50,400 bases of DNA from assembly GCA_017961295.1 (NCBI GenBank), contig JAGCXL010000027.1:1-50400 (forward strand), read 5' to 3'. The stretch is from Elusimicrobiaceae bacterium. GTDB lineage: Bacteria; Elusimicrobiota; Elusimicrobia; Elusimicrobiales; Elusimicrobiaceae. The position numbers and the translations under genes are program-made. This document shows, piece after piece, positions 1 to 31,923 of the stretch. The notes under the pieces were generated by a model that did not search any database, was not told where the DNA came from, and saw only the letters and a program-made list of their open reading frames with translations. Numbering within the stretch: the first letter of the stretch is position 1; every line of letters begins with the position of its first letter.

Positions 1-9
1 AAATTTATA

Positions 10-166
10 GGAGTATCGAGCGGCATAAACTGCTTTATGCCGCGTCGAGATTCGAAGCCCGGAGCGTTGTACGAGTTTTGCCGCAGGCAAAGGCGAGTAC
101 CGCGAGGGCGGTTCCGGGCGCAATTTCCGTCAGGAAATTGACGCAAGACGAACTCTCGTCGACTCC
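10..166. ncRNA. Highly structured intergenic element, possible ncRNA or repeat
   Basis: No ORF covers this stretch, but it folds into nested stems. An outer stem pairs GGAGT (10-14) with ACTCC (162-166) and CGAG (17-20) with CTCG (155-158). Inside are a perfect 9-bp hairpin (21-42), a 7-bp stem pairing 57-63 with 113-119 and enclosing a small hairpin (77-91), and a perfect 8-bp hairpin (121-140). The outer stem is followed by an AT-rich tail and then a terminator at 194-231. It matches no riboswitch or housekeeping RNA that I recognise. It could be a transcribed RNA, the 3' region of a transcript entering from the left, or an interspersed palindromic repeat. The strand cannot be decided from one copy. 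Confidence 0.45.
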
Positions 167-193
167 GTATTTTAGTTTTTGATTTATAGCATA

Positions 194-349: not shown

Positions 350-1477
350 ATGAATTTTTTTCTTGCTAAATTAATCGGAATAATTATCATTGGAGGAATT
401 TTATACATTCTTAAACAAAAAAGTTTAACGATAGCCGCCTATTTTGGCAATACAGAAGCCGTAGTGCGACTACTGCAAAAATGCACAAATGTGAATCAAA
501 GGGATTTACAACGTGCAACTGCTCTAATGTATGCAGCTCAAGAGGGACATGGACAAATTGTTCAAATACTACTTCAAGCTGGAGCTGATGTGTCTTTGCG
601 TTCCATCTACGGGTCCACGGCTTTATCCTTGGCTATTGATCGGGGTAGAGTAGGAATTACCAAATTATTATTGGATGCTGGTGCGCCTACCGAAGAATTA
701 TTGCGTAAACGTAAAGTTCCGCCCATGATATCGGCTATTATCCAAAATAATCCAGAACAGGTTTTCGCTATCTTGGAACAGGGAGTCAGCCCAGACAAGC
801 TTTATAAAGGTAAAGCAACTGCCCTTATGTATGCAACGGCCTTGGAACGGTTAGATATCGTTAAAATACTCTTAAACAAAGGAGCAAAAACCAACCAAAT
901 ACAAAAAGATGGAACTTATGCCTTATTCTTAGCGGCTTGGAGAGGCAATTTACCTATTTTTGAACTACTTTTTGCTTACGAATATCCCACTCCCCAAAAT
1001 ATGCCTAATATTTTTGAAGTCGCCTTACATAGTGGACATACTAACTTGGTAGATTTTCTCCTCAATCAAGGCAGAGATGTCAGCCACATAGATGAACATG
1101 GGGGCACTGCTCTCTTATATGCTATTCAGGATAACAATCCGGAAATGGTAGTCATGCTTTTAGAAAAAGGAGCTAACCCTAATTTAGCTTCCACCGTTAA
1201 AGAAAACGCAACTCCCCTAATGTTTGCAGTTCAAAATAATAATTTAACTATTTTGAAAAATTTATTAGAGAAAGGAGCTAACCCCAATATGGCCGATAAA
1301 GACGGACGTACCGCATTGATGGGTGCTTGTTTTTATGGTACTACCAAAGCTGTGGAAATATTATTGGCAGCAGGAGCAGACATCCATGCAAAAGATAACT
1401 TCGGCAATACAGCTCTTTCTTTGTCTCGTACCCAAGAAATTGCAGAACTATTAAAACAAGCCGGCGCAAAAGAGTAA
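350..1477 (+). CDS. Membrane-anchored ankyrin-repeat protein
   Basis: The 375-aa protein has one N-terminal hydrophobic segment (about residues 5-22) and then about ten ankyrin repeats running to the C terminus. Typical repeat phrases are visible, such as TALMYAAQEGHGQIV near residue 57 and LLEKGANPN near 270 and 306. Ankyrin arrays bind other proteins, and no catalytic domain is present. Its partner and the side of the membrane it faces are unknown. A weak GGGG lies about 8 nt upstream of the ATG. The coding DNA is clearly AT-richer than the housekeeping genes nearby (one 60-base line near 1201 is about 27% GC). Together with the flanking repeats and the tRNA-tail copy at 1690, this suggests acquired DNA. 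Family call is secure; function is not known. Confidence 0.85.
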   Translation: MNFFLAKLIGIIIIGGILYILKQKSLTIAAYFGNTEAVVRLLQKCTNVNQRDLQRATALMYAAQEGHGQIVQILLQAGADVSLRSIYGSTALSLAIDRGRVGITKLLLDAGAPTEELLRKRKVPPMISAIIQNNPEQVFAILEQGVSPDKLYKGKATALMYATALERLDIVKILLNKGAKTNQIQKDGTYALFLAAWRGNLPIFELLFAYEYPTPQNMPNIFEVALHSGHTNLVDFLLNQGRDVSHIDEHGGTALLYAIQDNNPEMVVMLLEKGANPNLASTVKENATPLMFAVQNNNLTILKNLLEKGANPNMADKDGRTALMGACFYGTTKAVEILLAAGADIHAKDNFGNTALSLSRTQEIAELLKQAGAKE

Positions 1478-1651: not shown

Positions 1652-1710
1652 GGGGACAAAACTGGGAACACTTGGTTGAAATATGCTTTCTCCCTCTCCG
1701 TATGAATTTA
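1652..1710 (+). repeat. Solo tRNA-Ser 3'-end copy with adjacent GGGGACA block (putative attachment-site scar)
   Basis: GGGGACAAAACTGGGAACA (1652-1670) is followed after 19 nt by CTCCCTCTCCGT (1690-1701) and TATGAATTTA. The second part matches the last bases of the tRNA-Ser at 31766-31850 and the bases just beyond it. The same two blocks, in the same order and 21 nt apart, recur on the minus strand at 31115-31064. The rest of a tRNA (acceptor 5' arm, D arm, anticodon arm) is missing, so this is not a tRNA gene. I read it as one end of an integrated element, or what is left of one, in a tRNA 3' end. That is an inference. Confidence 0.6.
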
Positions 1711-30234: not shown

Positions 30235-31035
30235 ATGATTATTCTGGCTGTGTTGATTACCCTGGGAGTGTGGTTCTGTTTGGCCCGCTTGGGCGCACAT
30301 TTTGTCTTTAAACCCAAACGCAAGCGCTGGCCGCTACACTTGCCGTTTCAAAACGTGCAAGCCGGGCCGCTAAACGGGGTTTACCTGCCCGCCCAACCCC
30401 AAAAACCTACCCTCTTGTTTTTTCACGGGCGCGGAGGAAATATCTCGCATTTTGAAAATTTTGCCCAAGCTTACGCTCCGCTGGGCTACGGAATTTTAAT
30501 GTTTGATTATAGTGGGTTTGGGCTTTCGCGCGGCAAACCCAGCCAGAAAAATTTACAACAAGATGCGTTTACTGCCGTCAATTACGCGCTTAAAGAGTTA
30601 AAAATATCCCCTCGGCAACTGGTGCTTTATGGACACTCGCTAGGCAACGCACCAGCCTTGTTTGCCGCCCGGCATTTTGGCCATTTTCCGTTGCGCGCGC
30701 TCATTTTGCAAAGTCCGTTTTTAAGCACACCCGATATGGCCGCCAGTTGGGCGTTGCGCGCTTACGAACCCAACCGTTGGTTGTACCGCACGTTGCGCGC
30801 GGCCGTAACCCCATTTTTATGGTTCAACCGCTTTAATAATGCAAGCTTAACGCAAAACCTTTCATTACCTGTTTTGTTATGCACCAGCAAGGCAGACCTC
30901 ATTTTGCCTTGGCAACAAAGTGCCAAACTGGCTGATGAAATCCCGCATCTGCAGCGCTTTTTATCAACTACCGGCGGCCATGACGAATTTAATTGGGCCG
31001 TCCAAGCGGTGGACAAGTTTTTACAAAAAAATTAA
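30235..31035 (+). CDS. Alpha/beta hydrolase, membrane-anchored (ABHD13/17-like)
   Basis: 266-aa serine hydrolase with one N-terminal hydrophobic anchor (about 2-22). Catalytic features: oxyanion-side HGRGGN (64-69), nucleophile S135 in GHSLG, acid D221 in SKADL and H249 in GGHDEF. The set and spacing match the BEM46/ABHD13-type family of depalmitoylase- or esterase-like proteins. The substrate is unknown. The Shine-Dalgarno is weak (GAGATGAT), and it may be co-transcribed with yajQ. Confidence 0.85.
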   Translation: MIILAVLITLGVWFCLARLGAHFVFKPKRKRWPLHLPFQNVQAGPLNGVYLPAQPQKPTLLFFHGRGGNISHFENFAQAYAPLGYGILMFDYSGFGLSRGKPSQKNLQQDAFTAVNYALKELKISPRQLVLYGHSLGNAPALFAARHFGHFPLRALILQSPFLSTPDMAASWALRAYEPNRWLYRTLRAAVTPFLWFNRFNNASLTQNLSLPVLLCTSKADLILPWQQSAKLADEIPHLQRFLSTTGGHDEFNWAVQAVDKFLQKN

Positions 31036-31054
31036 GTCCCTAGTTGGGGAACTT
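31024..31054 (-). terminator. Minus-strand terminator next to a tRNA-tail copy
   Basis: On the minus strand AAGTTCCC / GGGACTT (one bulge) followed by AATTTTTTT. It lies just downstream, in minus-strand sense, of the tRNA-Ser tail copy at 31075-31064, in the position of a tRNA terminator, yet no tRNA gene precedes it now. Confidence 0.5.
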
Positions 31055-31198
31055 ATAAATTCAACGGAGAGGGAGCCCGTAACCTTACCGACGACGTGTC
31101 CCCAGTTTTGTCCCCGGTTTTTCATATTTCAAATTTCTATTTTTAAAGGAGTATGCGCATATTAAATATTGTAAAATAGAGTAAAAGGAGATTAAAAA

Positions 31199-31699
31199 AT
31201 GAAATTTATATTTTTGATTTTATTTGTGTCTTTTGCCGTGTGCTTTGCGATTTTTGTATTGAAAGTGATAAAAGCACAAATTGCCCGTGTATTTACGGAA
31301 AATTATGCCAAATTAAAACAAATATATCCTACTCCTCTACATACGTGGGGAGGATTGACGGGCTCTTTAAGTACTAAATGGATAACAAACTTACAATTTA
31401 GAGGAACATTGAAGATAGACGTATATGCTGATATGTTGATTGTGAGCGCAATGGGGCAAGGGTTATGCCTGCGCTATGACCAGTACGTATTTAAACAGAA
31501 ACAAGTATTATTTTTACATTATTTGGTTGTTGAAAATTTGCCCGTACAGGGAAAAAGCAGCACAGCGGCTTTTACTGGACCAATCGATTTTGGGCAATTA
31601 ACTACATTGCAAGTCCTTTTGTCAGTAAAAAAAATAGATACTATTATCAAATTGGCACAAGATAAATCGCTGCGCCTTTCAAATCCCGACGTGGCCTGA
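31199..31699 (+). CDS. Orphan membrane-anchored protein (cargo of the tRNA-Ser segment)
   Basis: 166 aa with one N-terminal transmembrane helix (about 2-22) and a soluble domain of about 140 residues without cysteine pairs or catalytic motifs that I recognise. The good AAAGGAG Shine-Dalgarno and intact frame suggest it is translated. The DNA is AT-rich compared with the hydrolase gene upstream and the peptidase gene downstream. It is the only gene between the two tRNA-Ser 3'-end repeats. Function unknown. Confidence 0.7.
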   Translation: MKFIFLILFVSFAVCFAIFVLKVIKAQIARVFTENYAKLKQIYPTPLHTWGGLTGSLSTKWITNLQFRGTLKIDVYADMLIVSAMGQGLCLRYDQYVFKQKQVLFLHYLVVENLPVQGKSSTAAFTGPIDFGQLTTLQVLLSVKKIDTIIKLAQDKSLRLSNPDVA

Positions 31700-31733
31700 A
31701 GCAGTTCAGGCCACTCCACTCTCCATAAATTTA

Positions 31734-31757
31734 AAACCCCGCCAAAAGCGGGGTTTA
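31734..31757. terminator. Terminator shared by the orphan gene and tRNA-Ser
   Basis: AAACCCCGC / GCGGGGTTT with T or A runs on both sides. It lies 9 nt beyond the tRNA 3' end on the minus strand and about 35 nt after the orphan gene on the plus strand. Confidence 0.8.
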
Positions 31758-31765
31758 AATTTATA

Positions 31766-31850
31766 CGGAGAGGGAGGGATTTGAACCCTCGAAACCTTGC
31801 GGTTTACAGGTTTTCGAGACCTGCTGTTTCAACCACTCACACACCTCTCC
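31766..31850 (-). tRNA. tRNA-Ser(CGA)
   Basis: On the minus strand the gene begins GGAGAGGTGTGTGAGTGG and ends CCTCCCTCTCCG. The acceptor arm pairs GGAGAGG with CCTCTCC. The anticodon loop CTCGAAA, closed by CAGGT/ACCTG, gives anticodon CGA, reading UCG. A long variable arm (ACCGCAAGGT) is class II, as expected for tRNA-Ser. The T arm is GAGGGTTCAAATCCCTC. The discriminator is G and CCA is not encoded. A terminator follows. Its 3' end is duplicated at 31064 and 1690. Confidence 0.96.
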
Positions 31851-31923
31851 AATTCTGTTTTTACCGAGTGGCAGGAGCAAACAGCTTTTTTTATTATACT
31901 AAACTTTCACGAAATTTGAAAAG

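Follow-up and report, generated by a model that had tools for sequence, protein, structure and literature searches.

A two-layer insertion at a tRNA-Ser(CGA) gene and R1, a structured element found beside tRNA genes in two bacterial phyla

The insertion at tRNA-Ser(CGA)

tRNA genes are classic landing sites of bacterial mobile DNA, normally by way of integrases that each know one site. The locus described here raises the question of what has landed behind a tRNA gene when the inserted segment encodes no integrase. We analyzed a stretch of 50,400 nucleotides from an Elusimicrobiaceae bacterium (GenBank GCA_017961295.1, contig JAGCXL010000027.1; hereafter the window), in which a 12-bp sequence, ACGGAGAGGGAG, occurs as direct copies at 31064-31075 and 31765-31776, the latter being the 3' end of a tRNA-Ser(CGA) gene (31765..31851, minus strand; ARAGORN; Rfam tRNA, 56.9 bits). 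With one mismatch allowed, 3 such tails were found, compared with 0.02 per window in shuffled sequences, and with its similar flanks the repeat extends to 19 nt at 84%. The original prediction had taken the 0.7 kb between the copies for a miniature element that lacks an integrase, is mobilised in trans and carries a membrane protein.

Insertion at the tRNA 3' end with duplication of the tail was confirmed by a related genome (G079, L020), which has the same pepMA - tRNA-Ser(CGA) - hydrolase locus, with the peptidase gene upstream, the hydrolase gene downstream and no insert. Its sequence after the tRNA tail aligns with the window flank beyond the solo tail, and segment 31064-31776 is inserted DNA, flanked on both sides by the tRNA-Ser(CGA) 3' end in direct orientation. 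The empty site further implies that the tRNA kept its end, that its old terminator (31033..31055, minus strand) was displaced, and that the insert brought a new one, a hairpin directly 3' of the tRNA (31728..31762, minus strand; inverted repeat 31728-31742/31748-31762); these are the two terminators that had been noticed behind the solo tail and the intact tRNA. In the window (31728-31773) and at many other R1 loci (e.g., L051, L109), the terminator behind the tRNA is often a longer palindrome reaching into the 3' end of the tRNA itself, which suggests palindrome correction or copying. The orientation of tRNA-Ser(CGA) relative to the neighbouring hydrolase gene is opposite across species of the genus (L020 and the window versus L066 and L102).

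Read outward from the tRNA, on the minus strand unless stated, the locus consists of X1, the tRNA sequence from the T-loop to the discriminator (31765..31785), 12 bp of which are duplicated at 31064; the new terminator; X'a, GGAGAGTGGA (31715..31724), the complement of the tRNA acceptor 3' strand and the 5' strand of a helix P0, assigned from the sequence and from P0 statistics over 89 elements; a hairpin H1, GTGGCCTGAA CTGC TTCAGGCCAC (31691..31714), with a AACTGCTT loop region, assigned from its inverted repeat and the covariance-model (CM) alignment; X'b, GGGATTTGAAA (31677..31687; CM), the complement of the tRNA T-arm and the 5' strand of a helix P1; the first 11 nt of a core (31666..31676); an orphan ORF of 166 aa (31199..31699, plus strand); a block of two TGTCCCC repeats (31096..31115, plus strand); the outer solo tail X3 (31064..31075), which forms the distal boundary; and the old terminator. 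H1 and the inverted T-arm copy TTTCAAATCCC at 31677-31687 had been missed by the original prediction; X'a, H1, X'b and the core belong to a family of elements that we designate R1.

The same order is present in another relative (G083, L041), with an orphan 70-75% identical. Because R1 is intact there, the window copy has lost about 105 bp, comprising the rest of the core and the inner tail copy (CM score of the remnant, 33.7 bits), and is evidently a deletion derivative of the G083 arrangement. Comparison of this tRNA-Ser locus among relatives, as had been proposed, returned both an empty site and a filled one with intact R1. The 0.7 kb segment is a two-layer relic, in which an R1 remnant lies beside the tRNA, a prophage-type attachment end lies at the far side, and the orphan is trapped between them. 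Its history would have begun with R1 at the tRNA, followed by a prophage-type insertion at R1's own tail copy, and then by decay.

The claim that did not hold is that the segment forms a single self-contained miniature element, integrative and mobilised by a tRNA-Ser integrase acting in trans, a reading that we regard as highly improbable. Such an element would explain the tails at both ends and the arm-like repeats inside the solo copy; relatives do have a prophage integrase family for the same tRNA, and a similar unit of orphan, block and tail adjoins the same tRNA in G083. However, the tRNA-proximal side is derived from R1 and is devoid of arm repeats, dozens of tRNAs have R1 alone with no gene attached, the window copy derives by deletion from the L041 arrangement, and the orphan occurs in G004 with neither tRNA nor block.

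The orphan was correctly recognized as the one ORF between the tails, and it has no Pfam or PHROG match; its C-terminus is encoded by R1-derived sequence. As for its being a membrane protein, one N-terminal membrane helix is predicted for the family, while the rest of the protein has no assignment, and structure prediction was confident for the N-terminal helix only (pLDDT 44 overall). In G004 (L006), the homologue adjoins a nucleosidase-like gene.

The block, GGGGACAAAACTGGGGACA at 31097-31115 (minus sense), lies just inside the solo copy, as first described, and was found 2 times in the window compared with 0 expected. Relatives, too, have TGTCCCC repeats close to tRNA-Ser. Those of L063 separate tRNA-Ser(CGA) from a phage integrase gene (PHROG 1, E 5e-27) and a gene for a CI-like repressor; L101 (G007:C9) has a related block with prophage genes (endolysin, reverse transcriptase) on one side and a tRNA-Ser tail on the other. 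From these two contexts, we interpret block plus tail as an attachment end bearing arm-type sites, the block being a plausible integrase-arm motif because it recurs at the ends of integrase-carrying prophages. The outer tail and TGTCCCC repeats thus probably represent an attachment end belonging to a family of tyrosine-integrase prophages whose targets are tRNA-Ser tails, R1's end copy among them. Like tRNA-targeting tyrosine-integrase islands and prophages, the outer layer has a duplicated tRNA 3' end and leaves the tRNA intact. Arm-type repeats are present on the solo-tail side of the segment only. The same prophages separate tRNAs from their R1 in L101 and L062, and an island parts tRNA-Val from R1 in L152. 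The prophage end in L101 also carries, beside the attachment site, a reverse transcriptase (PHROG 1423), an endolysin and a small gene that by eye resembles the C-terminus of anaerobic ribonucleotide reductase; a similar small gene adjoins the block in L052 and L062.

Both components occur again at the start of the window. A complete R1 with a tRNA-Asp-type tail (12..168, plus strand; CM 124.3 bits, E 3e-33), absent from the original prediction, is followed by an ankyrin-repeat gene (350..1477, plus strand), a second copy of the block (1652..1671, minus strand) and a second, exact solo tRNA-Ser tail (1690..1701, minus strand), likewise overlooked, so that GGGGACAAAACTGGGGACA adjoins both solo tails (31097-31115 and 1652-1670). 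A continuation of window 1-168 into contig C14 was considered and dropped, the same R1 sequence also starting C13 and C28; its presence at the starts of all three contigs indicates that the assembly is broken there. Most of the genomes are draft metagenome assemblies, in which repeats break contigs; since assemblies break at R1 repeats, R1 is under-counted in draft genomes.

R1, a structured element downstream of tRNA genes

Genomes of the same genus contain many solo tails at a distance of about 200 bp from a tRNA-Ser gene, and the intervening DNA is one shared sequence. Ten such tRNA-Ser-to-tail spacers were aligned as a seed, yielding 50 consensus pairs, 29 of them with compensatory changes, and a covariance model was built. 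The model detected R1 in 60 of 61 same-genus genomes (up to 23 copies each) and in 56 of 150 genomes across the phylum Elusimicrobiota. A search across 85,000 genomes with an exact pattern, which covers one R1 subtype only, returned 73 stretches, from Elusimicrobiota, Patescibacteria (Parcubacteria, Kaiser-, Campbell-, Zambryski-, Wolfe- and Saccharibacteria) and a few unnamed bacteria, and including one match, in Enhygromyxa (L183), that was taken as chance because it had no model support. Nearly all of the 43 pattern loci tested were supported by the model. Both phyla contain many small and symbiotic genomes. A second R1 type was seen in Patescibacteria (L171, L197, L190, L194, L203), having a short X2 and a long, near-perfect H1 that starts at the tRNA's last bases, and an IMG/VR contig classed as viral (L244) has three copies of R1 close to one end of the sequence examined. 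Rfam has no R1 family and gave only tRNA and sub-threshold chance matches, and in open-licence papers we found no description of a structured RNA behind tRNAs in these phyla.

R1 is a structured element of about 165 nt with two stacked three-way junctions and strong covariation. Its anatomy is X1 - terminator - X'a - H1 - X'b - core - X2. The last of these, X2, repeats the tRNA 3' end in direct orientation, and X'a and X'b together are its complement, split by H1. The folding plan is alike in both phyla, with P0 (X'a:X2), H1, P1 (X'b:X2) and then arms P2 and P3. The core sequence is conserved, with strong conservation of its loops across the two phyla. Among 59 distinct sequences, 94.8% of the pair cells are paired and 38 of the 50 pairs show double changes. 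The covariation score was 0.39, compared with 0.13 for shuffled alignments and 0.06-0.073 for slid structures; the alignment was fitted to the model, which favours these figures, but the slid and shuffled controls remain far off. Folds of single sequences gave the same P0-H1-P1-core arrangement, with z of -4 to -7. In the helices, G.U outnumbers A.C by 150 to 12, partly due to two invariant U.G pairs, and this excess indicates that the tRNA-sense strand is probably the functional one, as RNA or as single-stranded DNA.

R1 lies 0-50 nt downstream of tRNAs of many identities. It was found on the same strand directly downstream of Ser, Tyr, Asp, Thr, Pro, Val, Met, Cys, Gln, Arg, Leu and Asn tRNAs, and in Patescibacteria also behind Ala, Phe, Ile, Lys, Glu and Gly tRNAs. 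In two genomes that were counted completely, 32 of 37 R1 copies are directly downstream of a same-strand tRNA, and 12 of 44 and 15 of 41 tRNAs, respectively, carry one. Each copy matches its own tRNA. The identity of X2 to the own tRNA 3' end has a median of 18 nt, versus 6 for other tRNA types; at least 10 nt are shared with the own tRNA in 44 of 54 cases versus 33 of 1746 for other types, and in a mostly Patescibacterial set in 17 of 30 versus 6 of 798. The T-arm part, X'b, matches the own tRNA in 47 of 54 cases (others, 232 of 1746), and the acceptor part, X'a/P0, at a strict cut, in 14 of 89 (others, 48 of 6282). Most copies in the same genus lie beyond a terminator hairpin, while in Patescibacteria and distant Elusimicrobiota the gap between tRNA and R1 is often just 0-20 nt and contains no terminator. 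What deserves explanation is that one conserved structure stands beside tRNAs of at least 16 amino-acid types, with matching copies of each, in two phyla. A cautionary point also follows for annotation, in that tail repeats near tRNAs are not necessarily marks of integrase islands.

Evidence for mobility and a proposed mechanism

Several observations bear on whether R1 moves. Cores that are 96-98% identical lie beside different tRNAs, for example Ser-TGA and Cys-GCA (G015), Val (G030) and Met (G028), and X' and X2 of such near-identical cores fit their own tRNA perfectly or with few changes. For 41 of 69 cores, the nearest core is in another genome beside another tRNA. At tRNA-Ser(GGA), an R1 unit of about 210 bp is present in G011 and absent in G032, with the flank near-identical from the first base after the tail. 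A second candidate empty-site pair, L109 versus L063, was dropped because L063 has a prophage end as its flank. R1 copies are frequently tandem or decayed, and in arrays the tRNA-proximal copy scores above the farthest in 18 of 22 (p 0.002), as though new units were added on the tRNA side. These data point to movement of R1, or at least of its core, although gene conversion among resident copies could also mix cores.

We propose a two-layer insertion in which the folded strand of R1 serves as the attachment site for a recombinase acting in trans, and give this reading a probability of about 0.5. The tRNA-sense strand would fold so that X'a and X'b pair with X2 (P0 and P1), rebuilding the tRNA 3'-end duplex, with H1 looped out of one of its strands. 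The folded single strand would then be joined to the real tRNA 3' end by a recombinase, predicted to be host Xer or phage-type, and joining at that position would place new units next to the tRNA and push older ones outward. Xer-like recombinases are present in 25 of 25 genomes; to our knowledge, Xer pairs are near-universal, which makes their presence weak evidence. No recombinase is linked to R1 by position, nor is there a recombinase family among its recurrent neighbours. The integrase near R1 in L152 is part of the ordinary tRNA-Val island that displaced R1, and that in L151 is on the other side of the tRNA. Further points weigh against a folded attachment site. It leaves the match of X' and X2 to each new tRNA unaccounted for; the conserved loops and frequent G.U pairs suit RNA at least as well as single-stranded DNA; and in distant families R1 hugs its tRNAs with no terminator, making a role in the tRNA transcript possible.

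A close known parallel is the attP of CTX phage, in which two inverted sites 90 nt apart lie within about 150 folded bases (PMC5357621). Like CTX-type IMEX, R1 has no integrase of its own, and a strand of about 150 nt, with inverted segments about 90-110 nt apart, rebuilds a target-like duplex, here indicated by structure prediction and covariation. CTX-type IMEX insert at dif through XerC/XerD, however, whereas R1 sits at tRNA 3' ends, has no phage genome, uses a conserved three-way-junction structure as its folded part and remains foldable when integrated. R1 also resembles integron cassettes in having folded sites, tandem units, apparent insertion by a fixed anchor and occasional single cassette-like genes. 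Integron attC sites show no sequence conservation outside the crossover triplet (PMC4792948), unlike the R1 core, which is strongly conserved in sequence; the anchor of R1 is any tRNA rather than attI, and no IntI was linked to it. Phage_integrase genes are present, yet beside R1 arrays only in ordinary islands. As its target is not dif, no IntI is linked and its core is conserved in sequence, we file R1 under neither system. It likewise differs from tRNA-targeting integrase islands in its lack of an integrase, its size of about 200 bp, its complementary tail copy and its covarying structure.

Alternative readings of R1

It is possible, though doubtful, that R1 represents a new class of integrase-less mobile element, in which each move rewrites X' and X2 from the new tRNA by way of a folded strand, DNA or RNA, that mimics the tRNA 3' duplex; such rewriting would let one conserved core colonise tRNAs of any identity. 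If R1 is mobile, it embodies a new principle of retargeting; if it is regulatory, it is a switch on tRNA maturation. The regulatory reading, in which R1 acts within the tRNA transcript as an RNA switch or processing element and a ligand or protein bound by the core decides maturation, arises because X' has two possible partners: pairing with X1 would disrupt the tRNA, and pairing with X2 would close R1 and leave the tRNA free. We consider it unlikely, although it is the main rival of the folded attachment site. These mutually exclusive pairings are available in most copies, the core loops are conserved over two phyla, the distant R1 often follow their tRNA by 0-20 nt without a terminator, and over a quarter of the tRNAs in the two fully counted genomes carry R1. 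On the other hand, copy number ranges from 0 to 23 inside one genus, tRNA transcription would end at a terminator hairpin ahead of most copies in that genus, tandem copies and decayed ones are frequent, cores do not track tRNA identity, and empty sites exist.

A guide role is less probable. R1 would here act like a bridge RNA for a nuclease or recombinase, and the tRNA 3' end would be located by a guide split into X'a and X'b on the two sides of H1. As with the bridge RNA (seekRNA) of IS110/IS1111, it would be a non-coding structured RNA with target-complementary segments; P0, H1 and P1 do suggest a split guide that flanks a hairpin and is complementary to a contiguous target, and the guide varies with the target at every locus. 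In IS110, though, the two target guides pair with opposite strands (PMC11208160), while both guide parts of R1 pair with the same strand; R1 also involves tail duplication, no partner protein adjoins it, and among 16 same-genus genomes none has the DEDD transposase of IS110 and one has a reverse transcriptase, leaving either partnership unsupported. TIGR-Tas systems were set aside because the passages found on them mention no relation to tRNA genes. We also think it improbable that R1 copies are ancient residents devoid of dedicated mobility now, with gene conversion homogenising the cores and template-switch correction keeping X' and H1 perfect. This would account for near-identical cores with locus-specific flanks and for hairpin arms that changed together, as in H1 of the window and L041, but the nearest core is mostly (41/69) in another genome beside another tRNA, precise presence and absence with tail duplication is found, and array order favours insertion next to the tRNA.

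Among the recurrent neighbours of R1, ankyrin genes occur in three loci. At 15 loci (e.g., L110, L112, L113, L116, L117, L120, L137, L151, L051, L098), a lone type IV pilin-like gene stands no more than a few hundred bases from R1, as though such genes travelled with R1 as cassettes. In G030 (L118, 3970-7440), R1 stands behind a tRNA-Val; beyond it come 3 kb holding two unknown genes and then a degenerate R1 that ends in a further exact tRNA-Val tail, possibly a larger element bounded by R1.
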